Source of the DNA: Bacteroidales bacterium | GTDB lineage: Bacteria; Bacteroidota; Bacteroidia; Bacteroidales; UBA932 | Assembly (NCBI GenBank): GCA_028690215.1 | Contig: JAQVBQ010000004.1 | Location: 53,204 to 117,203, forward strand | Length of the DNA stretch: 64,000 nt | Direction: 5' to 3' | Shown: piece after piece, positions 36,309-58,928 of the stretch | Layout: every line of letters begins with the position of its first letter | How positions within the stretch are numbered: position 1 is the stretch's first letter | The notes under the pieces: model-generated | Database searches by the model: none | What the model was told of the DNA's origin: nothing | What the model saw: the letters and a program-made list of their open reading frames with translations, nothing else | Position numbers and translations under genes: made by a program

Positions 36309-37340
36309 TTAAAATGTGCTTCTTCTTATCAATCTGAAGTTGCATCGAATCTTCCTGAAGGGTTTCTCGAGGATCATCAGTGCGGCAAGCTCACCCATCT
36401 GTATGAAGTCGGTCGACATCACAGTAAGCCCGTCAAGGATAATCTCATTTATCGGAGACTCGTTGTATGAGATGATACCGATATCCTTTCCTATACTGCA
36501 CCCCTTCATTTTTGCTATCCTTACAAGTTCTATCAGTTCAGAGTCCAACTGGCTGTTCAGGATAAGGAAGATCTCACCCTTTTCAATCTTATTCTGATTA
36601 ATTGTATGGTGAAACTCGTATTGTATTCCGTCTTCGTCACAAAAACGTTTTATACCTTTTTCTATAATAGGAGAGTATAGAGAACCCTTCATAGAGACAA
36701 TATTCAATTTCCTGAATTTAAGGATGTCCTCTTTACCTTGACAGAGGCCGTCATAAATGTCATTCTCGAAATCCTGGTATACTGACCCGAAGTTACCTTT
36801 TAACTCGTCTATATATCTGTCAAGTAGAATTAGCTTTCTGTTTGGTATTCTCTTAAGGGTCCTGACCACTCTGCTCTGGATGTCTTCCTGGAGTGAGAAG
36901 TGAGGGGTAACGATGTAGTAGTCGAATTTATCCAGATTCTCCTCTACGAATTGCTCGAATAGGTCAACATCCTGGTTGTGGAGACGGATGGTTATTTCGG
37001 AGAGCTCTCCGATATGATTCATAAATGAGGAGAATAGTACCTGCTTGTATGTGCTCAATTTGTCAAATAAGACAAGAATCTTGATTTTATCCCCGTTTTT
37101 ATTTGTGATGTAGAATCCTTTCCCCTGGGCAGATCCGATCAGCTCTTCATCTCTGAGCAGCGCATAGGCCTTTTTGACAGTCTCCTTGGAGATGTTCAGC
37201 TCAGCAGACAATTCGTTCATTGATGGCAAAAAATCTCCCACCTCATACTCTCCGTCATTTACCAAATCCCTTATCGATTGCATTACCTGCTTATAGACAG
37301 GAACCTGAGATGCGGGATCCACTTTTATTTTTGAATTCAT
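36309..37340 (-). CDS. GntR family transcriptional regulator with periplasmic-binding-protein-like effector domain
   Basis: wHTH: PVYKQVMQSIRDLVNDGEYEVGDFLPSMNELSAELNISKETVKKAYALLRDEELIGSAQGKGFYI; then sugar-binding-like domain. Confidence 0.9.
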   Translation of the reverse strand: MNSKIKVDPASQVPVYKQVMQSIRDLVNDGEYEVGDFLPSMNELSAELNISKETVKKAYALLRDEELIGSAQGKGFYITNKNGDKIKILVLFDKLSTYKQVLFSSFMNHIGELSEITIRLHNQDVDLFEQFVEENLDKFDYYIVTPHFSLQEDIQSRVVRTLKRIPNRKLILLDRYIDELKGNFGSVYQDFENDIYDGLCQGKEDILKFRKLNIVSMKGSLYSPIIEKGIKRFCDEDGIQYEFHHTINQNKIEKGEIFLILNSQLDSELIELVRIAKMKGCSIGKDIGIISYNESPINEIILDGLTVMSTDFIQMGELAALMILEKPFRKIRCNFRLIRRSTF

Positions 37341-37373
37341 AATAATATTTTATATAAAAATATAAACTTCCTA

Positions 37374-37403
37374 TTGTATATTAAAAAACAAACTTTAAAT
37401 TTG
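37374..37403 (+). promoter_or_regulatory. Bacteroidetes-type promoter upstream of susC-like gene
   Basis: TTG (37374-37376), 19 nt, TAAATTTG (37396-37403). Confidence 0.65.
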
Positions 37404-37404
37404 T

Positions 37405-37457
37405 ACCACACTACACAACACTTAAATTGATCCTGATTAACTTAGCTGTGGTGTGGT
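37405..37457. promoter_or_regulatory. Interrupted inverted repeat, candidate operator of the GntR regulator
   Basis: ACCACACTACA (37405-37415) and TGTGGTGTGGT (37447-37457), 10/11 complementary, directly downstream of the -7 element. Confidence 0.5.
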
Positions 37458-37501
37458 TTTGGGTGCAAATTTAAACAACAAAATGCTAATTTAAACTTGA
37501 T

Positions 37502-40500
37502 TTGATGAAAAAAAATGTTGGATCAAATGATTTAATGCAGTTATTCCAAAAATATTGGACTGCAACTTTATTGATGCTGTTAGGCTGTTTCTTGTATACA
37601 GACCTGATGGCTCAAAACTTATCCGTATCCGGAACAGTCAGATTTTCAACAGGAGAGGCTGTCCCTGGTGCAAATGTCTCTGTAAAGGGTTCTGCAAATG
37701 GAACCATGACTAATGCAGATGGTACCTATAATTTGACAAATGTGCCTGCAAATTCTGTTCTTCAATTCTCTTTTATAGGTATGGAGACACAGGAGGTGAA
37801 CCTGAATGGCAGGAAACAGATTGATGTCGTACTTAAAGAGAGTGCAATTGTACTTGATGAGGTGGTGGCAATTGGTTACGGAACTGCAAAGAAAAAAGAT
37901 CTGACAGGTTCGGTTTCGGCTGTGGGCAGCGAGAAGCTCATGTCACGTCAGAACAACCAGGTCATAACAGCCCTTCAGGGTGCCATGGCCGGTGTCACAA
38001 TTACAAGATCAAGTTCTGCTCCCGGAGTTGGGGGGACAATCCGTGTCAGAGGTATTACCTCAATTCAGGAGAGTGATCCACTTATAATTATTGACGGAGT
38101 GCCTGCCAGTAGTATCAATGATGTGAACCCTGCCGATGTCGAGAATATCACAGTCCTCAAGGATGCTGCATCAGCCTCTATCTATGGAGCAAGAGCTGCT
38201 GCAGGAGTTGTACTTATAACAACTAAAAGAGGATCCCGAGACGGAATGAATGTTGACTATAACTACAGCCTCTCATTGGATGTGCCTACAAAGATGCCTG
38301 AATATGCCAATGCGGTAACCTACATGAAGGTGCTGAATGAGAGAAACTGGAATGATAATAATGCAGGAGGTGAATATTCTGTATATGAGAAGGACCTGAT
38401 TGATAATTATTGGAGTCTGAATAAACAGAATTCTGATCTTTATCCAAATACTGATTGGGTTAACTTATGTATGGAGGATTATGGCGTGAAACACAGCCAT
38501 CAGCTTGGTATTTCAAGCGGAAATGAGAAATCAAGGACAAAGGTTAGTTTCGGATATGATAATGTGGATGGTTTGTATGTTGCAAACAACTCATGGAAAA
38601 GGATCACTGCCAGAGTCAACAATGACATCAAACTTAAAAAGTGGCTCTCTACATCAATTGACCTTGGTCTCAAGCATAGTGAGACTATAGAGCCGGCTTT
38701 CAGCCCATCTTTGAGAATGAGGTACGCGGCTCCGGTATATCCTGCTATATTCTCTGACGGACGTCTTGCAGGAGGTAAGGATGGTGAGAATCCATACGGA
38801 AAACTCGTTTATGGAGGAAATGAAAACAGTAAGGGTTATCAGGTTAGCGGAAAAGTTTCTGTGGATATTAAGCCAATCGAGGATCTTACTATCACAGGTG
38901 TCTTTGCACCTATATATAACTTCTCTAAGGTCAAACGCTTTAACAAACAGGTTGAGTATTATACATCATGGGATGATATGGTGAGCACTGACTTTATGGA
39001 TGATACAAATACAACTGACTTGAGGGAGACCAGAAGTGACAGTTATTCAATAACTTCACAGATATATGCAAACTACAATAAAACCATAAACAAGCATAAT
39101 ATAAGTGCGACTTTAGGTTATGAGACCTTCCACTATTTCTATGAGAATCTCTGGGCTTCACGCGGAGAGTATGATATTCCTTATTACCCGTACCTTGCAG
39201 CAGGTCCTTCAACTCTAATGGACAATAATGGAGATGCATATGAAAATGCTTACAACTCATACATCGGAAGGGTAATGTACAACTGGGGATATAAATATTA
39301 TGTTCAGGCTAACTTCCGTTATGATGGTTCAAGCCGTTTCCATAAAGATCACAGATGGGCATTTTTCCCTTCTGCATCTCTGGGATGGGTTATATCTAAA
39401 GAGAACTTCATGCAGGATATTGACTGGCTCTCTTTTGCTAAACTGCGTCTTTCCTATGGCCAGCTTGGTAACGAGAGAATAGGTAATTATCCTTATCAAT
39501 CTTCAATTGAATTCAATACAGGAACACTATATCAAGGAAGTACAATTATTCCTGTTCAGGGAGCTTCTGCATACCAGTACGCAATACAAGACATCTCTTG
39601 GGAGACAACTGAGACAATTGACCTTGGTCTTGATCTCAGCTTCTTTAGAGAAAGACTGAAGTTTACCGGAGATTACTATCAGAAGAAAACTATGGATATG
39701 CTGTTGCAGCTTCAGATTCCTAATTATATGGGTTATACTGATCCTGATCAGAATGCAGGCACAATGTCTACTAAAGGATGGGAGATTGATCTGGGGTGGT
39801 CAGACAAGATTGGAGACTTCTCTTATGGAATTAACTTCAACCTTTACGATTCAAAGACTGTAATGGGTGAACTTAAAGATACCCAGGTGCTCTCGAATGG
39901 CCTTATTATAAGAGAGGGCAGTGAATACAATGAGTGGTACGGATACAAGAGTGACGGTATATTCCAGACAGCTGAAGAGATAGCTTCTTCTCCTGTAACT
40001 TCAGGAGCTGTTATGGTGGGAGATATCAAGTACAAAGATATCAGTGGCCCTGAAGGAACTCCTGATGGTAAGATTGATGCAGTATACGACAGGGTTCTCC
40101 TTGGCGGTTCTCTTCCAAGATTCAATTATGGAGGTAACATCAACCTTGGATATAAAGGTTTTGATTTCTTAGTGGCTTTCCAGGGTATTGGAAAACGTAA
40201 CTCGATGATAACTGAAGATATGGTGCAGCCAATCAGAGGTGACTGGTACAATGTACCACAGATAATTGTAGGTAAGTACTGGAGCAACTACAATAGTGAA
40301 GCACAGAATGCTAACGCTAAGTATCCTCGGGTTTCCAGAACCGGAAATACAAACAACTATGCAATATCGGATTTCTGGATGATTGACGGGTCATATTTCC
40401 GAATTAAAAATATAACACTTGGTTATACAATTCCTTCTCAGCTTTTGAGAAAAATTTCACTTCAGAATGTGAGATTCTATGCTTCACTTCAGGACATCTT

Positions 40501-40600
40501 TACAATAAGCAACTATCCACTGGGATGGGATCCGGAGGTAAGTTCTACAGGCTACCCAATTACAAAATCGGTAATTTTTGGAGTTTCAGTTAAATTTTAA
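37502..40600 (+). CDS. SusC/RagA-like TonB-linked outer membrane protein
   Basis: SVSGTVRFSTGEAVPGANVSVKGSANGTMTNADGTYNL, DEVVAIGYGTAKKKDLTGSVSAV, GTIRVRGITSIQESDPLIIIDGVP, VLKDAASASIYGARAAAGVVLITTKRG. Confidence 0.96.
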   Translation: MMKKNVGSNDLMQLFQKYWTATLLMLLGCFLYTDLMAQNLSVSGTVRFSTGEAVPGANVSVKGSANGTMTNADGTYNLTNVPANSVLQFSFIGMETQEVNLNGRKQIDVVLKESAIVLDEVVAIGYGTAKKKDLTGSVSAVGSEKLMSRQNNQVITALQGAMAGVTITRSSSAPGVGGTIRVRGITSIQESDPLIIIDGVPASSINDVNPADVENITVLKDAASASIYGARAAAGVVLITTKRGSRDGMNVDYNYSLSLDVPTKMPEYANAVTYMKVLNERNWNDNNAGGEYSVYEKDLIDNYWSLNKQNSDLYPNTDWVNLCMEDYGVKHSHQLGISSGNEKSRTKVSFGYDNVDGLYVANNSWKRITARVNNDIKLKKWLSTSIDLGLKHSETIEPAFSPSLRMRYAAPVYPAIFSDGRLAGGKDGENPYGKLVYGGNENSKGYQVSGKVSVDIKPIEDLTITGVFAPIYNFSKVKRFNKQVEYYTSWDDMVSTDFMDDTNTTDLRETRSDSYSITSQIYANYNKTINKHNISATLGYETFHYFYENLWASRGEYDIPYYPYLAAGPSTLMDNNGDAYENAYNSYIGRVMYNWGYKYYVQANFRYDGSSRFHKDHRWAFFPSASLGWVISKENFMQDIDWLSFAKLRLSYGQLGNERIGNYPYQSSIEFNTGTLYQGSTIIPVQGASAYQYAIQDISWETTETIDLGLDLSFFRERLKFTGDYYQKKTMDMLLQLQIPNYMGYTDPDQNAGTMSTKGWEIDLGWSDKIGDFSYGINFNLYDSKTVMGELKDTQVLSNGLIIREGSEYNEWYGYKSDGIFQTAEEIASSPVTSGAVMVGDIKYKDISGPEGTPDGKIDAVYDRVLLGGSLPRFNYGGNINLGYKGFDFLVAFQGIGKRNSMITEDMVQPIRGDWYNVPQIIVGKYWSNYNSEAQNANAKYPRVSRTGNTNNYAISDFWMIDGSYFRIKNITLGYTIPSQLLRKISLQNVRFYASLQDIFTISNYPLGWDPEVSSTGYPITKSVIFGVSVKF

Positions 40601-40623: not shown

Positions 40624-42354
40624 ATGAAAAAAAGGAATTATATATTATCGGCAATGGCGGTTGTGGCTCTCTATTCATGCAACAATCTCGATCTTCAGCC
40701 GCTTTCAAAGGCATCCAATGAGAGTTGGTTTAAAGACCGCACTCAGGTGGAGATGAGCCTTAACACTCTTTATCTGCACCAGTTCTGGCCAATGCATAAG
40801 ACAGATTTCGGAAGTAATATAATGTCTCTGGACGAACCTTCCGATGACTGGACAAACAGAACCACACTGAATGTCTTCACAAACGGAACTTTGACAGGAA
40901 CAAACTCATCGTTCCTCAATAACACCTGGACATACAGCTACAGGGCAATCAGCCGTGCAAATACCATCATAAACAACATTGACAAGGCAAAAGAGAATCT
41001 ATCTACAGAGCTATATGAGAGATATATTGCAGATGCCAGGTTTGTAAGAGCCTGCCAGTATTCAAGAATAATAGAGTATTGGGGTGATGCTGTATATTTT
41101 ACTGATGATATGGATATTGAAAAATCCTATACCCTTACAAGAATAAGCAAGGATACCATACTTGCCCACATTTACGAGGATTTCGATTATGCTATAGATA
41201 AGCTACCTGTTGCCTATGAGAGCACTGAGATAAAAAGAGCAACCAAGGGTGCAGCTTATGCAATGAAGGCAAGAGTTGCCCTCTTCTTCAATGACTATGC
41301 AACTGCACGTGATGCTGCAAAGGGTTGTATGGATCTTGGTATATATCAGCTTTATCCTGATTTTGGAGAATTATTCCTGAGCAAGACAAAGAACTCTGTG
41401 GAAACAGTATTTGGTATTCCTCGTTCAACTCAATATGGTACAGCCCTCACCGGAGGTTCTGTTACAGCATATCTTAGCAGGAATATTACATCTCCATCTG
41501 CAACAGCGTCTCCTTCATGGGATCTTCTCTGTGCTTTCCTTTGCACTGACGGAAAACCAATTGATGAGTCTCCTTTGTACGACCGCAAGAATCCGTTCAA
41601 GAATCGTGACCCGAGATGCTCATATACTATCGTAGAGTTCAATACAGATTACTTTGGATTTAATTACACTCCTCATCCTGATTCAGCACAATGTTGGAAT
41701 TACGCCACCCAGACCTTTGTTAAGAATAAGGACTCTAAGGCAGGTGACCAATATGCATCATATAATGGCCTGATCCTCAGGAAAGGTATTGATTCTGATT
41801 GGAATGATAACCTTGAAGCAGAGAACGATAAGCTGATCATGCGCTATGCTGATGTATTGCTTATGTATGCAGAGGCAAAGATTGAGCTTAATCAGATTGA
41901 CCAATCTGTACTCGATGCAATGAATATGGTAAGGGCACGTGCATATAAGGTTGATTTTAGGTCAGAAAACTATCCTAAGATAACTGAAACATCTCAATCT
42001 GCGTTAAGAACTATCCTCAGAACAGAAAGAAGAATGGAATTCGCATTTGAAGGGCTACGTTATAATGACATACTCCGTTGGAGAATTGCTGAAACAGTTA
42101 TGAACTACCCTAACTATGGTCTTCCGACAAGTGTCTCTCTATGCAAGACCTATTACAAAAATGGTTATTGGTTTATCCCTGGAGTTCCGGAAATTGACGA
42201 AAACGGTTGTCCTGATTTCTCAGAGATGCCCAACTTATCTCAGGCACGTGTATTGAGCAAAAGGGTGTTTGACAAGAACAAACACTACCTGTGGCCTATA
42301 CCTACTGCAGATATGCAGATAAATCCTAACTTGGTAAATAATCCTAATTATTAA
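40624..42354 (+). CDS. SusD/RagB-like nutrient-binding outer membrane lipoprotein
   Basis: Lipobox YSCNN; helical SusD pattern; IMRYADVLLMYAEAKIEL, RTILRTERRMEFAFEGLRYNDILRW, LWPIPTADMQINPNLVNNPNY. Confidence 0.95.
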   Translation: MKKRNYILSAMAVVALYSCNNLDLQPLSKASNESWFKDRTQVEMSLNTLYLHQFWPMHKTDFGSNIMSLDEPSDDWTNRTTLNVFTNGTLTGTNSSFLNNTWTYSYRAISRANTIINNIDKAKENLSTELYERYIADARFVRACQYSRIIEYWGDAVYFTDDMDIEKSYTLTRISKDTILAHIYEDFDYAIDKLPVAYESTEIKRATKGAAYAMKARVALFFNDYATARDAAKGCMDLGIYQLYPDFGELFLSKTKNSVETVFGIPRSTQYGTALTGGSVTAYLSRNITSPSATASPSWDLLCAFLCTDGKPIDESPLYDRKNPFKNRDPRCSYTIVEFNTDYFGFNYTPHPDSAQCWNYATQTFVKNKDSKAGDQYASYNGLILRKGIDSDWNDNLEAENDKLIMRYADVLLMYAEAKIELNQIDQSVLDAMNMVRARAYKVDFRSENYPKITETSQSALRTILRTERRMEFAFEGLRYNDILRWRIAETVMNYPNYGLPTSVSLCKTYYKNGYWFIPGVPEIDENGCPDFSEMPNLSQARVLSKRVFDKNKHYLWPIPTADMQINPNLVNNPNY

Positions 42355-42367
42355 TAACCATAAATAT

Positions 42368-44614
42368 ATGAGAAGAGTTATTTCAACATTTTACCTGCTG
42401 GTTATAATGATATTGACATGTCAGTATTCAGAAATCACTGCAAAAGAGTCAATTTCATCGGCAAGTGTCACAAACGCCTCTGGCAAGTTGATATTTTCTA
42501 AAGAAGGTATAAAGATTGAAACAGACGGAACTGCCCCCGGATCTGATTCGAAGAGCGAGGCTGTATGGTCAATCAAGATACAGAATCTGTCAGATAACAA
42601 TAGCGAGATTATTTTCAGTGAGAGAGACAATAAACCGGTTATCTCTACATCTGAAAATGGATTTGTGTTGTCTTACAATGGTCTCATATATAATGGAAAA
42701 CGTTGGGATATAGATTTAAATCTAAATTTTTCCAAAAAGGGTGAGGCATTCTCTCTTAACGGTGAAATCAAAAACAATGTCCAAGGTTGGGTTGTTGTTG
42801 GATTTACCGGCCCTGTCATAAGCGGTATCAAAGCAGAGCTTGCCGGTTATCCTCTGATCATGCCTTGCGGTCTTGGTCAGAAATTTACAAAGGCTCCATC
42901 GAGCAAAGATTCAATTAATAAAGTTAGTTTCAAAGGTGGATTGGCCTGGAAGTACGACCAGGCCACTTCATCCTTTTTCGTGAAGTCAGACTATCCGTCA
43001 AGATTTGCCACTATGCAGTGGTGCTCTTTCGCAGGCGACAAGGGTGGTTTGTATTACGGCAGTCATGACAATAAACACGGATCAAAGCATTTCCTGGTTT
43101 CATATAAACCCTCGGACAATACTCTGGGTGTGGCTTTTGAGCATGATCTTGCTTGTGCTCCGGGCGCAAAATGGCAAATTCCTGAACAGATTATCTATCC
43201 TTACAAGGGTACCTGGCACAAAGGGGCAGATTTATACAGAGAGTGGTTCAAGACTTCTGTCGCTTTTCAGCAGGTACCGGAGTGGCTAAGAAACTCTTCG
43301 GGATGGATGTTGACCATAATGAAGCAGCAGAACAATGAAGTGATGTGGAATTACGGGGATCTCTCAGAACTTGCAGACATGTCACTAGAGAGAGGACTTG
43401 ATATTATAGGTCTTTTCGGATGGACTGTTGGTGGTCACGATAAGTTTTACCCTTATTATGAACCTGATCCCGCAATGGGAGGGAAAGAGGGGCTGATGAA
43501 AGTCCTGAAGGATATTAAAAAGAAGGGTGTACGTTCTATTATATATGCTAACGGACAGTTGATAGATCAAAACGGGACTGATTACTGGGAAAAAGAGGGT
43601 AAGAGAATTTCTGTACTGAAGAGAGACGGAAAGGTAGACTATCAGAAATGGCACAAGTATTATGATGCTCCTGCCCGTTTTCATGGTATGGCTTGTCTCG
43701 GATGCGACGAGTGGTATGATATAATGCTCAAGCTTGCACTTCAGGCAAATGAGCTGGGTGCAGATGGTATTTTGTATGATCAGCTTGCTGTCACTGCTCC
43801 TAAATTCTGCTATTCACCTGATCACGGACATGCGGTTCCGGCAGTTGTATATGCCGAGGACAGATATCTGTTCTTACGCAAGATAGCTGAATACATGAAG
43901 ACTATAAACAAGGATTTTGTGGTTATGACTGAGGGGCTCAATGATGTGGAGATGGAGTCAATATCTATGTTCCACGGTTATGAAAATGGCGCTTATGTTC
44001 CGCTAATCGAGGAATTTTCTGCAAGATTGAACGGAAGTGCTCCTACTTTTATTTTCCCTGAGATGTTCAAGTATACATTTCCTGAATTGATCACCACAAC
44101 AAGAAATCCTGCACCGGTAAATAACAGGCTTATACTAAACTATGCAACTATGTATGGTCTGAGATCGGAGCTTGAGACCCGCTATGCGGCAGATGTCCGT
44201 TATCTCAAAGAAAACAGGATTCCGGTACCTGAAGATTACTCCAATGTCATAAGCAAACCAAATATCGATCTGGTAACATCAGAGGATCCTGTTGCAATGA
44301 AGAGTTATACAAAAGATGTGATTGATTTTCAGAGAGAGAATTCAGGACTGCTGTGGAGAGGTAATTTCAATGATGATAATGGCTTTTCTATAAAGTGCAA
44401 TAATAATACTGTCATTGCCAAATCATTCGTCTCAGGTAGCAGGATGGGTGTTGTTGTATGGAATACCGGAAAGAATAACGAGTCATTTGAAGTGGATGTG
44501 CCGGGATACACATTCGAGTATGCAACAGAGCCAGGCAAAGGAACAGTAAATGCATCAGAAAAAATCGCTGCAGAGAGTATCAGATTGCTGGTGTGGAAAA
44601 AAAATAACAGATAG
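42368..44614 (+). CDS. Secreted DUF6259-like putative glycoside hydrolase (TIM barrel)
   Basis: Signal peptide; GLDIIGLFGWTVGGHDKFYPYYEPDPAMGG, LGADGILYDQLA and VVMTEGLNDVEMES resemble beta-strand-end catalytic positions of retaining GH barrels. Confidence 0.65.
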   Translation: MRRVISTFYLLVIMILTCQYSEITAKESISSASVTNASGKLIFSKEGIKIETDGTAPGSDSKSEAVWSIKIQNLSDNNSEIIFSERDNKPVISTSENGFVLSYNGLIYNGKRWDIDLNLNFSKKGEAFSLNGEIKNNVQGWVVVGFTGPVISGIKAELAGYPLIMPCGLGQKFTKAPSSKDSINKVSFKGGLAWKYDQATSSFFVKSDYPSRFATMQWCSFAGDKGGLYYGSHDNKHGSKHFLVSYKPSDNTLGVAFEHDLACAPGAKWQIPEQIIYPYKGTWHKGADLYREWFKTSVAFQQVPEWLRNSSGWMLTIMKQQNNEVMWNYGDLSELADMSLERGLDIIGLFGWTVGGHDKFYPYYEPDPAMGGKEGLMKVLKDIKKKGVRSIIYANGQLIDQNGTDYWEKEGKRISVLKRDGKVDYQKWHKYYDAPARFHGMACLGCDEWYDIMLKLALQANELGADGILYDQLAVTAPKFCYSPDHGHAVPAVVYAEDRYLFLRKIAEYMKTINKDFVVMTEGLNDVEMESISMFHGYENGAYVPLIEEFSARLNGSAPTFIFPEMFKYTFPELITTTRNPAPVNNRLILNYATMYGLRSELETRYAADVRYLKENRIPVPEDYSNVISKPNIDLVTSEDPVAMKSYTKDVIDFQRENSGLLWRGNFNDDNGFSIKCNNNTVIAKSFVSGSRMGVVVWNTGKNNESFEVDVPGYTFEYATEPGKGTVNASEKIAAESIRLLVWKKNNR

Positions 44615-46110: not shown

Positions 46111-46133
46111 TTCCGACTATAAAACAAAAGATT

Positions 46134-47438
46134 ATGAATACTTTAAAGCTGAAGAAGGACAACTATAAATGGGAGGTACTTGTGCTGCTCTGGATTGCTT
46201 TCTTTGTCAACCAGGCAGACAGACAGGTTTTTAATGTCGTACTGCCATTGATTAAGGAGGATCTGGCACTTTCTGATGTTCAAATAGGTACAATCGCTAC
46301 AGCATTTAACCTTGTCTATGCCCTTCTTGTTCCTATGGCCGGATATATTGGCGATCTTTTCAGCAGGAAGTGGATTGTCTCGCTGAGTATTCTTTTCTGG
46401 AGTGTCGCCACGATGTTTACAGGATTGAGTAACGGCATGATTATGCTGATTGTTATGAGAAGTGTTGCAACAGGAGGCGGGGAGGCCTTTTTCGGACCAT
46501 CCAACTATGCCTTGCTAGCCAGCTATCATAACAGGGAGACACGCTCCTTTGCAATGTCCATACACCAGACATCATATTATGTGGGTGTGATTCTGAGCGG
46601 TTTCGTTGCCGGATACATCGGTCAGCATTATGGCTGGCGAAGTGCATTCCTGGTATTCGGAGCAGTCGGTGTCATTCACGCAGTAGTCATGATATTCAGA
46701 TTACGGGACAAGAAAGAGGAAGGTGTTGAAGTGAGGAGTGAAGGGGGAAGAGTGAAAACAGAAAATGAAAATTTGAAGAGCGATGAGGTTAAAAAAGAGA
46801 AGATATCACTTTTTGAAGGGTTCAGGGTTCTTTTTACAACGCCGACAGCTATTATGCTGACTGTAGGATTCAGCGGACTGATCTTCGTTCTTACAGGATA
46901 TCTTACCTGGATGCCTACATACCTTTTTGAAGAGTTCAACATGTCTCTGGCAGAAGCAGGATTTCACTCAATGTTCTATACACATCTGTTTGCTTTCTTT
47001 GGTGTAATGATTGCCGGGAAACTCTCTGACAAGCTTGCAGGGAAGAATCCTGCCAACAGGATTTTACTTCAGGCAGGAGGTCTTCTCTTCGCAGTGCCTT
47101 TTATAATACTCATGGGAAATTCAGGAACTCTTGCAGCAATCTATATCGGTTTTGCCGGATTTGGGTTCGCAAGGGCATTTTTCGATGCCAATACTTATAC
47201 GGTATTATATGATGTTATTCCGGAGAAGTACCACTCCTCTGCGTCAGGGGTGATGATAATGCTGGGCTTTGCCATGGGCTCTCTCTCCCCGCTGATTCTA
47301 GGGTTGATGAAACCGGTATTGGGACTATCATTCTCAATATCCAGCCTTGCTGTAATATGGCTGGTTTGTGGATTATTAATGGTCGTGGCATACAAGTTTT
47401 TCTATAACAGGGATTATGCTAAGATACACAACATATAA
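46134..47438 (+). CDS. MFS transporter
   Basis: 12-TM pattern; FFVNQADRQVFNVVLPLIKEDLALSDVQIGTIATAFNLVYALLVPMAGYIGDLFSRKWIV. Confidence 0.92.
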   Translation: MNTLKLKKDNYKWEVLVLLWIAFFVNQADRQVFNVVLPLIKEDLALSDVQIGTIATAFNLVYALLVPMAGYIGDLFSRKWIVSLSILFWSVATMFTGLSNGMIMLIVMRSVATGGGEAFFGPSNYALLASYHNRETRSFAMSIHQTSYYVGVILSGFVAGYIGQHYGWRSAFLVFGAVGVIHAVVMIFRLRDKKEEGVEVRSEGGRVKTENENLKSDEVKKEKISLFEGFRVLFTTPTAIMLTVGFSGLIFVLTGYLTWMPTYLFEEFNMSLAEAGFHSMFYTHLFAFFGVMIAGKLSDKLAGKNPANRILLQAGGLLFAVPFIILMGNSGTLAAIYIGFAGFGFARAFFDANTYTVLYDVIPEKYHSSASGVMIMLGFAMGSLSPLILGLMKPVLGLSFSISSLAVIWLVCGLLMVVAYKFFYNRDYAKIHNI

Positions 47439-50149: not shown

Positions 50150-52006
50150 ATGAGTTTCATGTTTAACCCACACCCGTATGACGATCCAAATGCTATCAAT
50201 AGGTTGAAAGTGGAGAAGGAAGTTGCCGGGGCAATACTAACCGGCACAAAAGATTCTGCAGATCATATTAGTGAGTTGATTTTAAAAAAGTTGGAGAGGG
50301 AACCTCGAAAGAGTGTAATAATAGCTTTTGACGGTTATGTAGGTGCTAAGTTCAATCAATTTGTCAACCTGATATCACAAAATTTGGGTTTAAGTTCTGT
50401 AACTGTAAAGGTTATAGATATTGCTTCATGTTATAAGACATCACAGGAGCTCGATGCACTGCTCGCTGACAACCTTGCCATCGACAAGGAGAAGGATCCT
50501 GTACAGCTTTTCGGAAAGCTCTTTAAAGGCACCTATGAGGATCTTCTTGATCAGGAAAAATTGTCTGAAATTGAACGTTCTCTGAATAATGCAAAGAGTT
50601 CAAATAGGGCAGAGGTTGTGATAGTAACAGGTTGTGGTACTGCAATACCAAGATTGAGAGCATATTATGATACATTAGTATATCTTGACGTTACACCTAA
50701 AAGAGCAATCCTTAGAGCAAAGGCCGGTGAGTACGCCAATATTGGTGATAATTCTGCAAGACCTGCAAAGGCCATGTTGAGAAGATGCTATTATGTGGAC
50801 TTTGAGGTTGCGGGTCACCTCCGTTGGGAACTGCTCAAAAAGGATCTGATAGACTTCTATGTTGCCAGCGATGATCCTGAGGATGTAAAGATGTTGCCAA
50901 GAGAGTCTTTTAACAGGATTATGTCAGGTTTGGTAAAGCAGCCTTTCCGTTGCAGACCCGTTTATATAGAGGGAGTCTGGGGAGGTCACTATGTTACAAA
51001 ACTTAGGAATCTACCAAAGACAATGAAAAACTGTGCCTGGGTATTTGACCTTATTCCTCTTGAGGTGAGCGTGGTTGTAGAGACTGCAGGTCATACAATT
51101 GAATTCCCCTATTTCACATTTGTCCAGAAGGAGGGAGACTCTCTGATGGGTAAAGAGTGTGTGAAAAAATACGGCGGATACTTCCCTATAAGGTTTAATT
51201 ATGACGATACATTCCACAGCTCAGGAAACATGTCTATACAGGTCCATTCAGGCCACGATTACAATATAAACAACTTCGGAGAGTACGGAAGGCAGGATGA
51301 GAGCTATTATATTGTAGAGACAGCCCACAACGCCAAGACATATGTTGGTTTTACCGAAACAGCCGATCCTAAGGAGTTTATAAAAGAGGCAAAAATTTCT
51401 GAGAAACAGCATACAGAGATTGATTACGAAAAGTATATCAACTATGTTGACTCAAAGCCGGGAGTACAGGTAATGCTTCCTGCCGGAACAATTCACTCAT
51501 CAGGACGTAATCAGGTTATTCTGGAAATCGGTAGTCTTACTGTAGGTTCCTATACATACAAGATGTATGACTATTTGAGGGCTGACCTTGACGGAAAACC
51601 AAGGCCTATTCATACTTTCCATGGTGAGAACGTTCTTGCCCTTGAAAGAAAGACAAAATGGGTTAATGACAACATTGTCCAAAAGCCGAGAGTAGCAGTA
51701 AAAGGTGAAGGTTGGACAGAGTATATAGTCGGAGAGCATGATCTTCTATACTTCACTCTCAGAAGACTCGAATTTGAGAAAGAGGCATACGGGGATACTG
51801 CCGGTAAATTCCATGTCCTCACATTGGTAGACGGAGAAAAGGTTTGTGTCCAGTCTCTGGAGAATCCTGAACTCTGCTATTATCAGAATTACCTGGATGT
51901 AGTGGTTATACCTGCAAATGTCGGTAAATATGTGGTTAAAAATCTTGGGAATCAGCCTGTTTGTATTCACAAGACAATGCTCAAAGATGGTTTTGTAAAT
52001 GACTGA
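50150..52006 (+). CDS. Two-domain protein: degenerate P-loop kinase-like N-terminus fused to mannose-6-phosphate isomerase (cupin)-like C-terminus
   Basis: N-term SVIIAFDGYVGAKFNQFVNLI (no canonical GxxxxGK[ST]) and YDTLVYLDVTPKRAILRAKAGEYANIG; C-term FRCRPVYIEGVWGGHYVTKLRNLP, MSIQVHSGHDYNINNFGEYGRQDESYYIVE, VMLPAGTIHSSGRNQVILEIGSLT. Confidence 0.7.
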   Translation: MSFMFNPHPYDDPNAINRLKVEKEVAGAILTGTKDSADHISELILKKLEREPRKSVIIAFDGYVGAKFNQFVNLISQNLGLSSVTVKVIDIASCYKTSQELDALLADNLAIDKEKDPVQLFGKLFKGTYEDLLDQEKLSEIERSLNNAKSSNRAEVVIVTGCGTAIPRLRAYYDTLVYLDVTPKRAILRAKAGEYANIGDNSARPAKAMLRRCYYVDFEVAGHLRWELLKKDLIDFYVASDDPEDVKMLPRESFNRIMSGLVKQPFRCRPVYIEGVWGGHYVTKLRNLPKTMKNCAWVFDLIPLEVSVVVETAGHTIEFPYFTFVQKEGDSLMGKECVKKYGGYFPIRFNYDDTFHSSGNMSIQVHSGHDYNINNFGEYGRQDESYYIVETAHNAKTYVGFTETADPKEFIKEAKISEKQHTEIDYEKYINYVDSKPGVQVMLPAGTIHSSGRNQVILEIGSLTVGSYTYKMYDYLRADLDGKPRPIHTFHGENVLALERKTKWVNDNIVQKPRVAVKGEGWTEYIVGEHDLLYFTLRRLEFEKEAYGDTAGKFHVLTLVDGEKVCVQSLENPELCYYQNYLDVVVIPANVGKYVVKNLGNQPVCIHKTMLKDGFVND

Positions 52007-52916
52007 TAAAAAGGCATATATAGTTGTGGATGTAGGAGGTACCTACCTCAAGTCCGCAGTAATGAGGCCGGATGGTGAACTCTTCCCTGATTCTTCATGT
52101 ATGACAGAGGCTCATTCAGAGGGATCAAGGGAGGAGATTCTGGATGCCATGAGATCTGCAATTGTAAAGGAGAAACAGATTCTTGAGCAGAGAGGTGCAA
52201 TGCTTTCCGGGATAGCAATGACCTTTCCCGGACCTTTTAACTATTTCAAAGGGACATCTTTGATGGAGCATAAATTCAAGAATGTCAAAGATGTTAACCT
52301 GAAAGAGTGCATAGCAGCGATGCCGGAAGTTGGTCGAGATATTCCTGTTGTTTTCAGACATGATGCAAACTCCTTACTGGCAGGAGAGCTTTGGCGCGGC
52401 AATGCAGTTGGTTTCAAAAATGCTGCAGCTGTAACACTAGGTACCGGTCTCGGTTTTGCATTCTCTCGTGATGGTGTTGTACAGACAAATGAGATAGGCG
52501 GTCCGCTCATTACTATTTTCAGAATACCATACAAAGATGGTATACTGGAGGATTACATATCAAAACGAGGATTCCTCTCTCTATATAAGAATCTAAGTGG
52601 AAGAGCCACTATTGAGGGAGTAGAGGTGTCTGACATAGGTAAATGGGCATCAGAAGGAGATCCTGTATCTCAGCGGGTCTTTGAGGAGATTGGAGTTATA
52701 CTCGCTCAATCACTAAAGCCGCTGCTTAAAGAGTTGGAGATCGAGTGCCTGCTTTTTGGCGGGCAGATATCCAGATCTTTTCACTGCATGGAGTCAAAAG
52801 TCAGGGAAGAACTCAATGATATGAGCAATCTGAAACTTATTTCGGTAGTGAAAAGTATTGAGAATGCCCCGTTATGGGGAGCTCTTCAATCAATAGTAAA
52901 CAATGAAAATATATGA
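51999..52916 (+). CDS. ROK family sugar kinase-like protein (1)
   Basis: YIVVDVGGTYLKSAVMRPDG, FPGPFNY, FRHDANSLLAGELWRGNA, VTLGTGLGFAF. Confidence 0.85.
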   Translation: MTDKKAYIVVDVGGTYLKSAVMRPDGELFPDSSCMTEAHSEGSREEILDAMRSAIVKEKQILEQRGAMLSGIAMTFPGPFNYFKGTSLMEHKFKNVKDVNLKECIAAMPEVGRDIPVVFRHDANSLLAGELWRGNAVGFKNAAAVTLGTGLGFAFSRDGVVQTNEIGGPLITIFRIPYKDGILEDYISKRGFLSLYKNLSGRATIEGVEVSDIGKWASEGDPVSQRVFEEIGVILAQSLKPLLKELEIECLLFGGQISRSFHCMESKVREELNDMSNLKLISVVKSIENAPLWGALQSIVNNENI

Positions 52917-55015
52917 AAAATAGATTATTTCTCTTGTTAATAGGTTTGTCGATGAATAATTTAGTTTCTGCTCAGGTTCAGAATGAAGGAAAATTGGTTT
53001 TGTTTGACGCATCAAAAGCCACAAATGGATCTATATCTGCAACTAACGGAGCTACATTTAAACTTGACGGCGGACTTCTCAAAATCAGCACTGTCGGGAA
53101 CAATGAATACCCATCTGTGCGTATTGAGGGTGAGTGGAATATCTCAGATTTTAACCAAATAGAGATTGAACTTGTCAATTTCACCAAGTCGTCACTTCCT
53201 GTAATGGTAAGACTTGAGAATGCCAATGCTAACCCTGACAAAGAGCGGGGAATTCTTCTCGACAGAGTTTCAATAGCCGGAGGTGCAACAAAAAGCCTTA
53301 CATTTCCGATACCTCCTAAGCCACCCTATCCGGATGTGAAGGAGAAACTTTTCGGAATGAGATATACCCCGTACAAATTGTCGGGCCTCGTTGAGGATCT
53401 TGATAAAAGTAAGGTGAAGGCTATCACTGTATATCTGAGAAAACCAAAGAATGACTGGGAGTGGGCGGTGAAAAGTGTCTCTGCAACAAAGGGAGAGCCG
53501 GAGAAAATGGTCTCTTGGATGAACATCCCGGCAGACAAATTCTTCCCTTTTATTGACAAGTACGGACAATTCGTCCATAAAGAGTGGCCCGGAAAGACAA
53601 AAAGCGATGAGGAGCTGGTGGAGTCACACAAAAGAGAGTTACTTGACCTTGCAGCACATAAAGGGCCTGAGGACAGGAGTAAATTCGGAGGATGGAAAAG
53701 TGGTCCTAGAGAGAAGGCAACAGGTCATTTCTATGTAAAAAAGATTGATGGTAAATGGTGGATGGTAGATCCTGAGGGATATCTTTTCTGGTCACACGGT
53801 GTTGTCAGGGTAACCCCGTCAACAGCAGTGACACCTCTGGACGGAAGGGATATTTATTTCACAGACCTGCCAAAGGAGAATGATCCTTTTGCAGAGTTCT
53901 ACAAGACCCATGATCAGCTTCTCTATCCATATTATGTTGCAAGAGGAATAAAGCGTACTTATGACTTTTCAGCAGCAAATATCAAGAGAAAGTACGGTGA
54001 GAACTGGCGTGCCGAATTTGCAAATATTGCTCATATACGTCTGAAAAGCTGGGGGCTGAATACAATAGCCAACAGTTCAGACAAATCTATCTGCATGATG
54101 GATAAAACCCCATATACAGACAGAATTGAGTTGAAATCACCTGACATAGAGGGTAGCAGGCAAGATTGGTGGAAGTTTAAGGATCCTTTCCATCCTGAAT
54201 TCAGAAAAGATTTCAGAAGGCAGTTGCTTGAAAGGAAAAAAGAGCTGGATGACCCATGGTGTTTCGGATTCTTCGTGGATAACGAGATTGCCTGGGGAAG
54301 CTCCACAGCTCTTGCAGAGTGGACTATGCAGTCACCTGCAACACAACCTGCCAAGGTTGAGATGATAAAATTTCTGAAGAAGAAATATCGTTCAATAGAA
54401 AAACTCAACTCTAAGTGGACAACAAATTATTCAGGTTGGGATGATCTTCTCAAGTTCCAGGGAGAGCTTCCTCAGGCAGCAATGGAAGATTGCAAAATCT
54501 TTACAGAGGTCATAACCGAGGCTTACTTCAAATTTGTAAGAGAGGAGTTTAAAAAAGTAGCACCAAACAAACTCTATCTTGGTTGCCGTTTTGCACGTTC
54601 AAATGCGACTGTTCTGAAGATTGGAGCAAAATATTGTGATGTACTTAGCTATAATATCTATTCCCGCTCACTTTCAACATTCTCACTTCCTGAAGGAGTT
54701 GATAAGCCGGTTATGATAGGCGAGTTTCATTTCGGTGCCCTTGACAGAGGACTTTTCCATCCCGGGCTTGTTGAGACAGCAAATCAACAAAAAAGGGGAG
54801 AGGCATACAAGGTATATGTTGAATCAGCACTGCGACATCCAAATATTATAGGGACACACTGGCATCAATTCTCAGATCAGGCAACAACCGGAAGGTTTGA
54901 CGGAGAGAATTTCCAGGTAGGCTTTACAGATGTTTGTGACAATCCATATCCTGAAACAATTGAGAATATCAGGAAAGTCGGATACGTAATGTATGAAATA
55001 AGAGCGAAAAAGTGA
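52913..55015 (+). CDS. Secreted agarase-like (GH50-like) glycoside hydrolase
   Basis: Signal peptide; GHFYVKKIDGKWWMVDPEGYLFWSHGVVRV, RLKSWGLNTIANSSD, CFGFFVDNEIAWG, PVMIGEFHFGALDRGLFHPGLVE, GTHWHQFSDQATTGRFDGENFQVGF. Confidence 0.7.
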   Translation: MKNRLFLLLIGLSMNNLVSAQVQNEGKLVLFDASKATNGSISATNGATFKLDGGLLKISTVGNNEYPSVRIEGEWNISDFNQIEIELVNFTKSSLPVMVRLENANANPDKERGILLDRVSIAGGATKSLTFPIPPKPPYPDVKEKLFGMRYTPYKLSGLVEDLDKSKVKAITVYLRKPKNDWEWAVKSVSATKGEPEKMVSWMNIPADKFFPFIDKYGQFVHKEWPGKTKSDEELVESHKRELLDLAAHKGPEDRSKFGGWKSGPREKATGHFYVKKIDGKWWMVDPEGYLFWSHGVVRVTPSTAVTPLDGRDIYFTDLPKENDPFAEFYKTHDQLLYPYYVARGIKRTYDFSAANIKRKYGENWRAEFANIAHIRLKSWGLNTIANSSDKSICMMDKTPYTDRIELKSPDIEGSRQDWWKFKDPFHPEFRKDFRRQLLERKKELDDPWCFGFFVDNEIAWGSSTALAEWTMQSPATQPAKVEMIKFLKKKYRSIEKLNSKWTTNYSGWDDLLKFQGELPQAAMEDCKIFTEVITEAYFKFVREEFKKVAPNKLYLGCRFARSNATVLKIGAKYCDVLSYNIYSRSLSTFSLPEGVDKPVMIGEFHFGALDRGLFHPGLVETANQQKRGEAYKVYVESALRHPNIIGTHWHQFSDQATTGRFDGENFQVGFTDVCDNPYPETIENIRKVGYVMYEIRAKK

Positions 55016-55770
55016 AAGTGGCAGAGAGATACAAAATAGGGCTGTTCATACCATGCTATATTGACCAGTTTTACCCTCAGGTCGGAATAGCTACACTGGA
55101 ACTGCTCAGAAAACTGGGACAGGATGTACACTATCCCCTTGAGCAGACATGTTGCGGGCAGCCGTTGGCAAACAGCGGGGCTGAGGATGATGCAAAAGAT
55201 GTGTACAAAAATTTTGTAAGAAATTTCTCTGAATTCGATTATGTTGTTACCCCATCCGGGAGTTGTGCCTATCATGTCAGAGAGCATTATGATATATTGG
55301 AGCAGAGTGAGGATGTAGTTAAAGTCAGGCGATGTACTTATGAGTTGTGTGAATTTATCGCCGATGTTCTGAAGGTTGACGATCTTAAAATAAACTATCC
55401 TCACAGGGTAGGGGTCCATCAGAGCTGTCACGGCTTACGTGGTCTTAAGCTCGGCAACCCTTCGGAACTTATATCTGCAAGCTATTCAAAGGTTATCTCT
55501 TTGTTGGAGAAGGCTGAGGGAATAGAGTTGATAAAACTTGACAGAGAGGACGAGTGCTGCGGTTTCGGAGGAACCTTCTCTATATTTGAACCGGCCGTCT
55601 CGGCAAGGATGGGACGTGACAGAGTAGATGACCATATCAGAAATAATGCTGAGGTGATTACTGCGACCGATATGTCCTGTCTGATGCACATGGAGGGTAT
55701 AATAAGGAGGAAAAATCTGAATATTAAGGTTGTCCATATTGCAGAAATATTAAATTCTAACACTCTATGA
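55012..55770 (+). CDS. lutA: LutA-like CCG-domain Fe-S oxidoreductase subunit
   Basis: IGLFIPCYIDQFYPQVGIATLELL, TCCGQPLANSG, HQSCHGLRGLKLG, DECCGFGGTFSIFEPAVSARMG; GTG start inside the upstream GTGA overlap. Confidence 0.88.
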   Translation: MKVAERYKIGLFIPCYIDQFYPQVGIATLELLRKLGQDVHYPLEQTCCGQPLANSGAEDDAKDVYKNFVRNFSEFDYVVTPSGSCAYHVREHYDILEQSEDVVKVRRCTYELCEFIADVLKVDDLKINYPHRVGVHQSCHGLRGLKLGNPSELISASYSKVISLLEKAEGIELIKLDREDECCGFGGTFSIFEPAVSARMGRDRVDDHIRNNAEVITATDMSCLMHMEGIIRRKNLNIKVVHIAEILNSNTL

Positions 55771-57143
55771 CAAACCATTCGGAAAGAGCAGCAATTTTTC
55801 TCAAAGATCAGAAGAGGGTGAGTTGGCACGATGAGACACTCTGGATTGTGAGAAAAAAGAGAGACAAGGCAGCTGCTGAAGTAAAAGAGTGGGAGGAGCT
55901 CCGCAATAAAGCCTCTCAGATCAAGGATTACGTGCTTTCAGATTTAGCCTATCTCCTGATGGAATTTGAAAGAAATGCGACATCAAACGGAGCTGTGGTA
56001 CATTGGGCTGCAGATGCGGATGAGTTCAACAGAATAGTACTGGAGATTATAAAAAGCAAAAATGGCCGTAACGTAGTCAAGAGTAAGTCGATGCTCACTG
56101 AGGAGTGCGGGTTGAACCATTATCTGGAGAATCATGGGATTGAAATTGTAGACACAGATCTCGGAGAACGTATAATTCAATTCAGAAATGAACCACCGAG
56201 TCACATAGTACTTCCGGCGATTCACCTGAAGAAAGAGGATATTGGTGAGTTGTTCCATACAAAGCTTGGTACGGAGAAAGGAGCCACCGACCCTCAGTAT
56301 TTGACCAGAGCAGCCAGGGCTCATCTTAGAGAGAAGTTTGTTAACGCTCAGGTTGCACTTACCGGAGTGAACTTTGCTGTTGCAGAGAACGGCTCTGTTG
56401 TAGTATGCACAAACGAAGGAAATGCAGACATGGGGGTACACTCGGCACCCGTACAGATTCACTGTATGGGCATTGAGAAGATTATCCCTAAAATGGAGCA
56501 TTTGGGCATATTTACAAGGCTACTGGCCAGAAATGCCACAGGACAGCCCATAACCACATATACTTCGCATTACATGACTCCAAAGGAGAATGGGGAGATG
56601 CACATAATAATTGTGGATAATGGACGTACAGAGAGACTCGGAAGCAGAGATTACAGAGATGCACTTAAATGTATACGTTGCGGGGCTTGTATGAACACCT
56701 GTCCGGTATATAGAAGGAGTGGCGGACACAGTTATGGATTCACAATACCGGGACCTATAGGAACAATACTGGCACCACACTCTTTACCCGGAAAAATCGT
56801 TTACAAGGACCTTCCAGCCGCATCCTCATTATGTATGTCCTGTTCAAATGTATGTCCTGTAAAAATCGGTATACACGAGCAGATATATAAACTGAGACAG
56901 GAGTTGATAAGAAACGGCTATGGCTCTCTTGTCAAAAGGTTCATCCTGAAGATTTCCGGATTTGTTTTCTCAAAACCTAACTTATACGATCTGTCAGGAA
57001 AAATGGTGAGAATGGCATTGAAAATACTTCCCAGACCACTGATATACAATCGTATCAATGCCTGGGGTTTGGAGAGGGAACTGCCTTCGGTCCCCGCACA
57101 ATCTTTTAAAGAGTGGTACAGACAAAATGAAAGCAATCAATAG
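55767..57143 (+). CDS. lutB: LutB-like iron-sulfur protein
   Basis: KSKSMLTEECGLNHYLENHGIEIVDTDLGERIIQ, ALTGVNFAVAENGSVVVCTNEGN, CIRCGACMNTCPVYRRSGGHSYG, CMSCSNVCPVKIGIHEQI. Confidence 0.93.
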   Translation: MTNHSERAAIFLKDQKRVSWHDETLWIVRKKRDKAAAEVKEWEELRNKASQIKDYVLSDLAYLLMEFERNATSNGAVVHWAADADEFNRIVLEIIKSKNGRNVVKSKSMLTEECGLNHYLENHGIEIVDTDLGERIIQFRNEPPSHIVLPAIHLKKEDIGELFHTKLGTEKGATDPQYLTRAARAHLREKFVNAQVALTGVNFAVAENGSVVVCTNEGNADMGVHSAPVQIHCMGIEKIIPKMEHLGIFTRLLARNATGQPITTYTSHYMTPKENGEMHIIIVDNGRTERLGSRDYRDALKCIRCGACMNTCPVYRRSGGHSYGFTIPGPIGTILAPHSLPGKIVYKDLPAASSLCMSCSNVCPVKIGIHEQIYKLRQELIRNGYGSLVKRFILKISGFVFSKPNLYDLSGKMVRMALKILPRPLIYNRINAWGLERELPSVPAQSFKEWYRQNESNQ

Positions 57144-57726
57144 TAGCAGACAAAAGATAGTTGAGAACATCAGAAAGTCAACGATGGCCGGAGGCATTAA
57201 TCATGCTCTGCCTCAGCTATCTTTTACTGATATAGAGAAAGAATCAAAAGAGGAGCTATATGAGAGATTCTCTCAATCATTAAAAAATGCCGGAGCAGGA
57301 GTTGTGGTATTGGATGTTTCTGAACTGGAGGGATATTTGAAAGATAAATTTCCGGAAGTGATTGATCTCCGGGATAGGAGTATATGGGAGCGTTACAAGG
57401 GAATGAAACCTTTGGAAATGGAATCAAAAACTGAATCTGTTCTCCTTATCGGGAAAATGGGTGTTGCAGAGAATGGCGCAATATGGGTTGATGAAACCTG
57501 TTTCCCTGAGAGATTGCTGCCATTTATCACAGGAAAGCTGGTTTTGTTAGTAGACGGGAAGACAATTGTCCGGGACATGCATGCAGCATATGCAGCTATT
57601 GCAGGCAAACTGGAAGGTTTTGGTGTTTTTGTTTCTGGTCCTTCCAAGACTGCAGATATTGAACAAAGCCTGGTTTATGGAGCTCATGGTGCAATCTCGC
57701 TCGATGTAATATTATTGAGAGGCTAA
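57127..57726 (+). CDS. lutC: LutC-like LUD-domain protein
   Basis: GVAENGAIWVDETCFPERLLPFITGKLVLLVDGKTIVRDMHAAYAAI, GPSKTADIEQSLVYGAHGAISLDVILL. Confidence 0.88.
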   Translation: MKAINSSRQKIVENIRKSTMAGGINHALPQLSFTDIEKESKEELYERFSQSLKNAGAGVVVLDVSELEGYLKDKFPEVIDLRDRSIWERYKGMKPLEMESKTESVLLIGKMGVAENGAIWVDETCFPERLLPFITGKLVLLVDGKTIVRDMHAAYAAIAGKLEGFGVFVSGPSKTADIEQSLVYGAHGAISLDVILLRG

Positions 57727-57827
57727 AATCCCCGTTTCACTTTGTTTTATTAGGTTTTTGAGCTTATTATTACACTTTTTATTTATATTTGTTAACATTT
57801 ACAAATTTTCTGATAACTAATATAAAA

Positions 57828-58928
57828 ATGTATACTAAGGAAAACCGAATTGTAGTCACACTGGATGCCGGAGGAACAAATTTTGTCTTCAGCGCCATTC
57901 AGGGGAATGAATATGTTGTAAGACCAATAACCCTTCCTTCGAACGCTTCGGATCTGGATACCTGCCTTTCAACTTTGGTAAAGGGATTTGATGCAATAAT
58001 AAAGTCATTGGGCAATAGTCCTGTTGCAATCAGCTTTGCCTTTCCTGGCCCGGCTGATTATAAAAATGGAATTATAGGCGGCTATTTGCCGAACTTTCCG
58101 TCATTCAGGGATGGAGTGGCTTTAGGCCCGTTTTTGGAGGATAAATTTGGTTTGCCTGTATATATAAACAATGATGCTGATCTTTTTACATACGGAGAAG
58201 CCATTGCCGGTGCATTACCTGAGATAAATCAACGACTGAAAGAGGCAGGAAGTCACAAGCAATATAACAATCTTATAGGTTATACATGGGGTACAGGCTT
58301 TGGTTATGGTCTCTCAATCAATGGTAAACTCCATATGGGGGATAACTCTTGTACTGAGACATTTTGCCTGAGACACAAACTGATGCCGGGAATTATTGTT
58401 GAGGACGGAGTCTCAGTAAGAGCGATAAAAAGGGTGTACGGAGAACTGAGCCATAATCCTGACCATAATCTTGAACCGGTAGATATATACAGAGTTGCAA
58501 CCGGAGCGATGGAGGGAGACAAAGATTCTGCAATCAAGGCATTTGAACTCTTTGGCGAGATTGCAGGAGATGCAATTGCAACTGCGACATCTCTGATAGA
58601 CGGTATTGTTGTCATAGGTGGTGGAATCACATCTGCCAGCAAATTCATTATGCCATCAATGTTAAACGAGATGAGAAGCAGCGTAAAAACTCTCTCGGGA
58701 GAGAACGTAAACCGTCTTCAACTTAATGTTTACAATCTGGATTCCAAGGAGGAGTTCGAACAATTTGCGAAGGGACAGAGCAGGGAACTTAATGTATACG
58801 GAAGTGACAGAAAGGTTATATATGATCCTGAAAAGAGGACAGGAGTCATGATTTCCAAACTTGGTGCAAGCAAGGCAATAGCAATAGGTGCTTATTGCTA
58901 TGCAATTCACTGTATTGATAAAAAATAG
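57828..58928 (+). CDS. ROK family protein (2)
   Basis: RIVVTLDAGGTNFVFSAIQGN, AFPGPADYKNGIIGGYLPNFP, YINNDADLFTYGEAIAG, GYTWGTGFGYGLSING, IVVIGGGITSASKF. Confidence 0.87.
   Translation: MYTKENRIVVTLDAGGTNFVFSAIQGNEYVVRPITLPSNASDLDTCLSTLVKGFDAIIKSLGNSPVAISFAFPGPADYKNGIIGGYLPNFPSFRDGVALGPFLEDKFGLPVYINNDADLFTYGEAIAGALPEINQRLKEAGSHKQYNNLIGYTWGTGFGYGLSINGKLHMGDNSCTETFCLRHKLMPGIIVEDGVSVRAIKRVYGELSHNPDHNLEPVDIYRVATGAMEGDKDSAIKAFELFGEIAGDAIATATSLIDGIVVIGGGITSASKFIMPSMLNEMRSSVKTLSGENVNRLQLNVYNLDSKEEFEQFAKGQSRELNVYGSDRKVIYDPEKRTGVMISKLGASKAIAIGAYCYAIHCIDKK

Follow-up and report, generated by a model that had tools for sequence, protein, structure and literature searches.

The window analyzed here is a 64,000-nt stretch of contig JAQVBQ010000004.1 from a Bacteroidales bacterium, whose 2.65-Mb draft genome (153 contigs) is 90% complete. 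The list of open reading frames (ORFs) for the window places 14 consecutive plus-strand ORFs at 37502–58928, and a gene for a GntR-type regulator (gntR) diverges from them (Table 1). In order, these genes code for SusC, SusD, a DUF6259 protein, a metallophosphoesterase, an MFS permease, a DUF4380 protein, an isomerase (ISO), a cupin protein termed KinPMI, a ROK kinase (ROK1), a GH50-like glycosidase, LutA, LutB, LutC, and another ROK kinase (ROK2). Neighboring genes are spaced by about -23 to +23 bp, and only ahead of ROK2 is the gap larger (~100 bp). The overlap of the phosphoesterase and MFS genes may not be real, because the MFS ORF begins with a TTG and its likelier start is the ATG at 46134. 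ORF coordinates agree with those of an original prediction for this DNA, as do nearly all domain calls (Pfam, NCBIfam), although that prediction counted 13 co-directional genes. With an adjacent SusC/SusD pair and two glycosidase-like proteins, the run has the gene content of a SusCD-type polysaccharide utilization locus (PUL), and co-regulation with the degradative and cytosolic genes is predicted from operator conservation. We conclude that it is probably a self-contained, locally controlled glycan-utilization regulon under one GntR switch.

The evidence for this switch centers on a predicted operator, ACCACACTACACAACAC. Its consensus was taken from intergenic regions upstream of gntR, which share it directly after the -7 promoter box TAnnTTTG. 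The copy ahead of susC is the sole site in the host genome even when up to two mismatches are allowed, and the exact 17-mer occurs in two of 393 genomes sampled from the order, both of which carry the cluster. A KinPMI search of genome contigs gave 80 related loci (loci are given L-numbers below). Sites matching at least 14 of the 17 positions number 45 in 42 of these loci, and 31 of the 45 lie right behind TAnnTTTG, but the consensus was derived partly from the same loci, so this enrichment is not independent of discovery. Sequence simulated with a first-order Markov model yielded one to four sites and the reversed pattern eight, none of them behind a -7 box. Three checks are independent of it: how the sites are placed with respect to the -7 box, the uniqueness at the genome level, and distant sites at SusCD genes. 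A scan for sigma-70 promoters and terminators was uninformative for this phylum.

Elsewhere, the operator precedes MFS, SusCD, and gntR genes as well as those for DUF6259 (L067, L076), GH39-like proteins (L039, L043, L044, L052), and ISO (L059). The Mariniphaga loci (L157, L036) have one operator before the core genes and another before susCD beside gntR, and the L043 genome has exactly matching sites at two positions, each of them at its KinPMI locus. One contig of Parabacteroides acidifaciens, like Mariniphaga sediminis a cultured species with this core and operator, ends with gntR, the operator, susC, susD, a GH50 gene, and an MFS gene, and another starts with ISO, KinPMI, and ROK1. Because the operator fronts SusCD, glycosidase, and core genes, uptake, depolymerization, and cytosolic metabolism would share one predicted switch. 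A near-match in a Planctomycete (G400) was rejected; it has no -7 box and is distant from the core, and the operator is for this reason taken to be restricted to Bacteroidota.

The GntR protein is most likely a local repressor. Homologs with 43%–68% identity are present in about 26 of the 80 loci, mostly adjoining the core, and homologs in L157, L158, and L161 are 60%–72% identical. The proximity of gene and site suggests that this protein binds the ACNAC-repeat operator. An inverted half-operator on the other strand (Table 1) could possibly serve gntR autoregulation.

A neighborhood comparison of the kind proposed in the original prediction reveals a conserved core. MFS–ISO–KinPMI–ROK1 recurs in most of the 80 loci at roughly 30%–70% identity, often with gntR divergent beside the MFS gene. 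The loci come mainly from Bacteroidales of ruminant and other guts and from sediment species, with a few lineages of Bacillota, Spirochaetota, Planctomycetota, and Opitutaceae; close KinPMIs were found in four phyla besides Bacteroidota. A TRAP transporter lies within the cluster of a Spirochaetaceae locus, and an SSF symporter follows DUF6259–GH39-like–ISO–KinPMI–ROK1 in Sedimentisphaerales. Bacteroidales bacterium CF retains the entire run at 81%–98% protein identity, and Bacteroidetes GWF2_40_14 (L033) retains gntR and susC through lutC at 41%–77%. With the susC–lutC order kept in these two further genomes, the arrangement exceeds chance. ISO is found in three of the 393 order genomes, the same three that have a close KinPMI, and two Bacteroidota genomes lacking ISO at the locus carry it elsewhere.

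Table 1. Features of the gene run and its promoter region (window positions)
Feature	Position	Strand	Basis and remarks
gntR, predicted repressor	36309..37340	-	GntR-HTH PF00392 E 1e-15; LacI/periplasmic-binding-like C-terminus PF13377 E 4e-5, just under cut-off
Bacteroidota -7 box TAAATTTG	37396..37403	+	Sequence reading; TTG 37374-37376, spacer 19 nt
Predicted GntR operator ACCACACTACACAACAC, three ACNAC direct repeats	37405..37421	+	Directly behind -7 box TAnnTTTG
Inverted half-operator ACCACACCACA (partial copy)	37447..37457	-	Faces minus-strand TAAATTTG at 37473-37466; sequence reading
SusC TonB-dependent transporter	37502..40600	+	TIGR04056 E 6e-283; likely ATG 37505
SusD glycan-binding lipoprotein	40624..42354	+	PF07980 E 5e-46
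DUF6259 protein, predicted exported glycosidase	42368..44614	+	PF19773 E 2e-29
Calcineurin-type metallophosphoesterase, predicted lipoprotein	44617..46110	+	PF16371, PF16370, PF00149; N-terminus by sequence reading
MFS sugar permease (core)	46104..47438	+	PF07690 E 1e-59; top NCBIfam model D-galactonate transporter, under cut-off
DUF4380 mutarotase-like protein	47416..48681	+	PF14315 E 2e-14; TTE1925 mutarotase E 1e-16, under cut-off
ISO, AraA/SftI-like aldose-ketose isomerase family	48678..50126	+	SftI model E 4e-9, far under cut-off
KinPMI, degenerate P-loop-like N-terminal domain and phosphomannose-isomerase-type cupin	50150..52006	+	1qwr ManA E 4e-11
ROK1 sugar kinase (core)	51999..52916	+	PF00480 E 4e-25; adjoins KinPMI in most loci
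GH50-like glycosidase, exported	52913..55015	+	PDB beta-agarases 5z6p E 3e-95, 4bq2 E 2e-81
LutA-like CCG Fe-S protein	55012..55770	+	PF02754 E 2e-31, two stretches
LutB-like LUD Fe-S protein	55767..57143	+	TIGR00273 429 bits, cut-off 444.8
LutC-like LUD protein	57127..57726	+	PF02589 E 4e-11 on ORF 57058-57726
ROK2, Bacteroidota glucokinase-like kinase	57828..58928	+	3mcp glucokinase E 6e-129; likely ATG 57828

In the mechanism we propose, the GntR/LacI-type regulator would occupy the operator, located where transcription from the susC promoter starts, until released by a sugar inducer. SusCD would bring in oligosaccharides, and the DUF6259 protein, predicted to be an exported, retaining glycosidase of GH129/GH36 type, would free a monosaccharide together with the GH50-like enzyme. 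The metallophosphoesterase would strip phosphate groups, the MFS permease would carry the sugar inward, and the DUF4380 protein would equilibrate its anomers. ISO, ROK1, and KinPMI would turn the sugar into a ketose or aldose phosphate of central metabolism, and LutABC may oxidize lactate or a related 2-hydroxy acid in the window lineage.

The C-terminal part of KinPMI resembles ManA, as judged from an AlphaFold2 model (pLDDT 92) that Foldseek matches to 1qwr (E 4e-24). Four residues of metal-ligand type (Q364, H366, E384, H449) are invariant, and this predicted cupin fold with a Gln-His-Glu-His metal site is that of a class I phosphomannose isomerase (PMI). The N-terminal half had been described as the kinase part of a kinase/cupin fusion. 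Its fold looks P-loop-like, but the Walker A motif GxxxxGK[ST] is not conserved in the family, in which the lysine position varies, and this leaves the kinase assignment unsupported. In loci L115 and L009 of the distant clade, a KinPMI relative (891 aa) carries a ROK kinase as an N-terminal fusion, a supporting sign of a kinase–isomerase partnership.

The PMI fold and its conserved metal-ligand-type residues could also indicate a ManR-type mannose or mannoside locus, with KinPMI as mannose-6-phosphate isomerase, ROK1 as mannokinase, and ISO as a redundant mannose isomerase. ManR is the GntR regulator of the mannoside pathway in B. thetaiotaomicron, placed by comparative genomics (BT2103, BT2107-13), and governs SusCD, alpha-mannosidases, and conversion to fructose-6-phosphate (PMC3878776). 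Distant KinPMIs with 28%–35% identity likewise sit with ROK kinases, GH92, GH38, and DUF4185. However, the clade of the window KinPMI is separate from that of the mannose loci (support 100/100, long branches), P. acidifaciens carries both types, and ISO is tied to the window-type clade in the 393-genome sample. The operator (at least 14 of 17 positions) was not found in mannose-type loci, and the accessory families recognized in close loci did not include GH92 or GH38. Pfam scans found neither family in the window run, and the GH92 gene of the host genome lies on another contig. The run functions like the ManR system in outline yet stands apart from it by each of these features, and we consider a mannose locus an unlikely explanation.

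ISO has four residues of metal-ligand type (E314, E338, H353, H455) that are invariant across 30 sequences. We presume that this Glu-Glu-His-His spacing resembles that of AraA, to which the profile match is weak (L-arabinose isomerases, E 7e-4). Among NCBIfam models, SftI scores best for ISO, which raises the prospect of sulfoquinovose as the substrate, with ISO as sulfoquinovose isomerase and DUF6259 as sulfoquinovosidase. A GH31 sulfoquinovosidase does appear among the DUF6259 fold matches (rank 33), and the transporters are of anion type (MFS of the D-galactonate type; TRAP in L070). Set against this, ISO scores 35.6 bits where the curated SftI cut-off is 700, and neither a sulfo-aldolase nor a transaldolase turned up in Pfam and NCBIfam scans of the operon. 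Moreover, sulfoquinovose carries its sulfonate on C6, which would leave little use for a PMI or a C6-type ROK kinase, and we regard this substrate as highly improbable.

For the DUF6259 protein, the AlphaFold2 model (mean pLDDT 72.5) has as its best Foldseek matches in the PDB a Flavonifractor GalN-ase (4e-30) and a Zobellia GH129-like 3,6-anhydro-D-galactosidase (8e-25), together with NagBb GH129 and GH36 enzymes. This middling model matches the fold of the GH129/GH36-like clan (beta-sandwich, TIM barrel, C-terminal beta domain), and no convincing match to that clan was found at the sequence level. With D471, E522, and D526 as invariant columns, the protein is predicted to be an exported glycosidase of GH129/GH36-like fold. 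In literature searches, no paper mentioned DUF4380 by name, and the results for DUF6259 were uninformative. The other glycosidase matches GH50 along its catalytic domain, and the two motifs with the catalytic Glu residues (DNE, IGEFH) are covered by the match. An earlier description as agarase-like thus holds for the family, while agar specificity is not implied, because GH50 includes non-agarases (PMC11079163).

Near the end of the run, CCG, LUD-Fe-S, and LUD subunits lie side by side as in LutABC, with the LutB score under its cut-off. Among the related loci, the complete set is confined to the window lineage and GWF2_40_14, which makes it lineage-specific. ROK2 homologs with 52%–63% identity occur in relatives without the cluster, and ROK2 is probably a housekeeping, glucokinase-like kinase that is not specific to the pathway. 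These distributions, and the gap before ROK2, would suit a stretch shared by several unrelated units: one operon for SusCD and glycosidases, the sugar core, and another operon for lactate oxidation that includes a glucokinase. We find that arrangement very unlikely given the overlapping genes, the synteny in GWF2_40_14, the single operator, and the occurrence of this operator on SusCD and core operons elsewhere. LutB is also single-copy here and absent from four genomes of the same family without the cluster, and LutABC is therefore favored as part of the unit. The original proposal of one import-to-cytosol pathway thus gains from the predicted co-regulation but loses ROK2, present in same-family genomes without the cluster, as a core enzyme.

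Traces of similar functions exist in other loci. In Mariniphaga sediminis (L036), ROK1 is immediately followed by a frameshifted lutA (12745-13408), and the metagenome-assembled genome (MAG) of a Prolixibacteraceae species (L035) has a 70-residue lutA remnant (2070-2279); neither locus gave a LutB or LutC match. In L035, a fusion of FAD-linked oxidase, Fe-S, and CCG parts lies downstream from ROK1 (14388-17222); it is 2-hydroxyacid-oxidase-like and possibly replaces LutABC. Judging from these remnants and this gene, 2-hydroxy-acid oxidation recurs near the core, in a few lineages only.

Several findings weigh against a single, self-contained regulon. The family match of ISO is weak, and confidence in the DUF6259 model is only middling. 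ISO is missing from three Bacillota MAGs that have KinPMI and ROK1 and from two Opitutaceae MAGs that have KinPMI, which leaves a strictly linear order of enzymes uncertain. Glycosidases vary among loci (DUF4855, GH127, GH3, GH28, GH88, GH2), so no single glycan is implied beyond the window lineage.

Like the original prediction, we could assign the run to no described pathway with the methods used here. That prediction held a GntR regulator over SusCD to be unusual; the regulator stands, but its novelty was overstated, given the precedent of the ManR mannoside regulon (PMC3878776). In both systems, GntR control would extend from SusCD and extracellular glycosidases through sugar uptake to the formation of a central phosphosugar. 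The window run differs in its additional AraA-like isomerase, in DUF6259 and GH50 in place of GH92 and GH38, in LutABC, and in a separate KinPMI clade with its own operator; GntR control over SusCD, kinase, and isomerase was already known from ManR. The fucRIAKUP operon of Bacteroides, governed by FucR, also combines a GntR regulator, a sugar isomerase of a related class, a permease, and a sugar kinase (PMC3878776). Unlike that operon, the run has no aldolase and includes a ROK kinase with a PMI cupin, SusCD, and glycosidases. In the D-arabinan locus PUL42 of Dysgonomonas gadei, one of the highly abundant proteins is a predicted fucose isomerase (PMC10115798), but scans of the close loci showed none of the DUF4185/GH183 and DUF2961/GH172 glycosidases named for PUL42. 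In the carrageenan locus of Zobellia galactanivorans, the GH129-like 3,6-anhydro-D-galactosidase (5opq) lies beside GH127 enzymes (PMC5698469). Although 5opq is among the best fold matches for the window DUF6259, the run has none of the anhydrogalactose oxidation, AraC-type regulator, or sulfatases found there.

What sugar might this regulon serve? If the operon is self-contained, its kinase/isomerase pair should end at fructose-6-phosphate or a pentulose-5-phosphate, and a mannose-type hexose or a pentose of the D-arabinose or D-lyxose type would fit. By established pathways, a kinase with an aldose-phosphate isomerase would reach central metabolism most simply from mannose-type hexoses or from pentoses of the D-arabinose, D-ribose, or D-lyxose type, barring a changed specificity of KinPMI. 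Glycosidases close to the core (GH129/36-like, GH50, GH2, GH39-like) lean towards galacto-like or pentose residues, although the set varies by locus. More tentatively, and with less confidence than we place in the regulon itself, ISO, ROK1, and KinPMI with their dedicated GntR and operator may constitute an undescribed route for a rare monosaccharide, widespread in herbivore-gut Bacteroidales. DUF6259 would then be a new glycoside hydrolase family that releases this sugar. The presence of LutABC, a LutA remnant, or an FAD/Fe-S 2-hydroxyacid oxidase near the core further hints that the sugar carries or yields lactate in some lineages.

A list of genes of unknown function has thus become a defined regulon with a predicted operator that can be tested and three candidate new enzymes, namely the DUF6259 glycosidase, ISO, and KinPMI. 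If the inducer were found, it would disclose a sugar for which many Bacteroidales of herbivore guts seem to be equipped and which the described pathways examined do not cover. The core is carried by many gut and rumen species open to study. Our findings also suggest that whole-pathway control of SusCD loci by GntR-type regulators reaches beyond mannosides.

Other genes near the core were recorded. In many rumen loci (L059–L111), the core has beside it recurrent susC–susD–BT3987-like–DUF4855 operons with genes for NAGPA, GH127, and a mutarotase-like protein. DUF4855, NAGPA, and Exo_endo_phos, common near the core in rumen species and absent from the window, were not used as substrate clues. An Oscillospiraceae MAG (L041, 8382-19612) has KinPMI–ROK1–DJ-1 and then genes for a glycyl-radical enzyme, its activase, EutS, EutP, a class II aldolase, and an alcohol dehydrogenase. 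The deoxyhexose hint given by these glycyl-radical and microcompartment genes was set aside, as it comes from one locus with a gap of ~140 bp. In the window, a 551-aa WG-repeat protein is encoded directly downstream from the run on the opposite strand (58944-60599). Farther on, an M20 dipeptidase ORF (62951-63937, minus strand) matches only model positions 127-454 despite opening within the window, and is possibly truncated or frameshifted.

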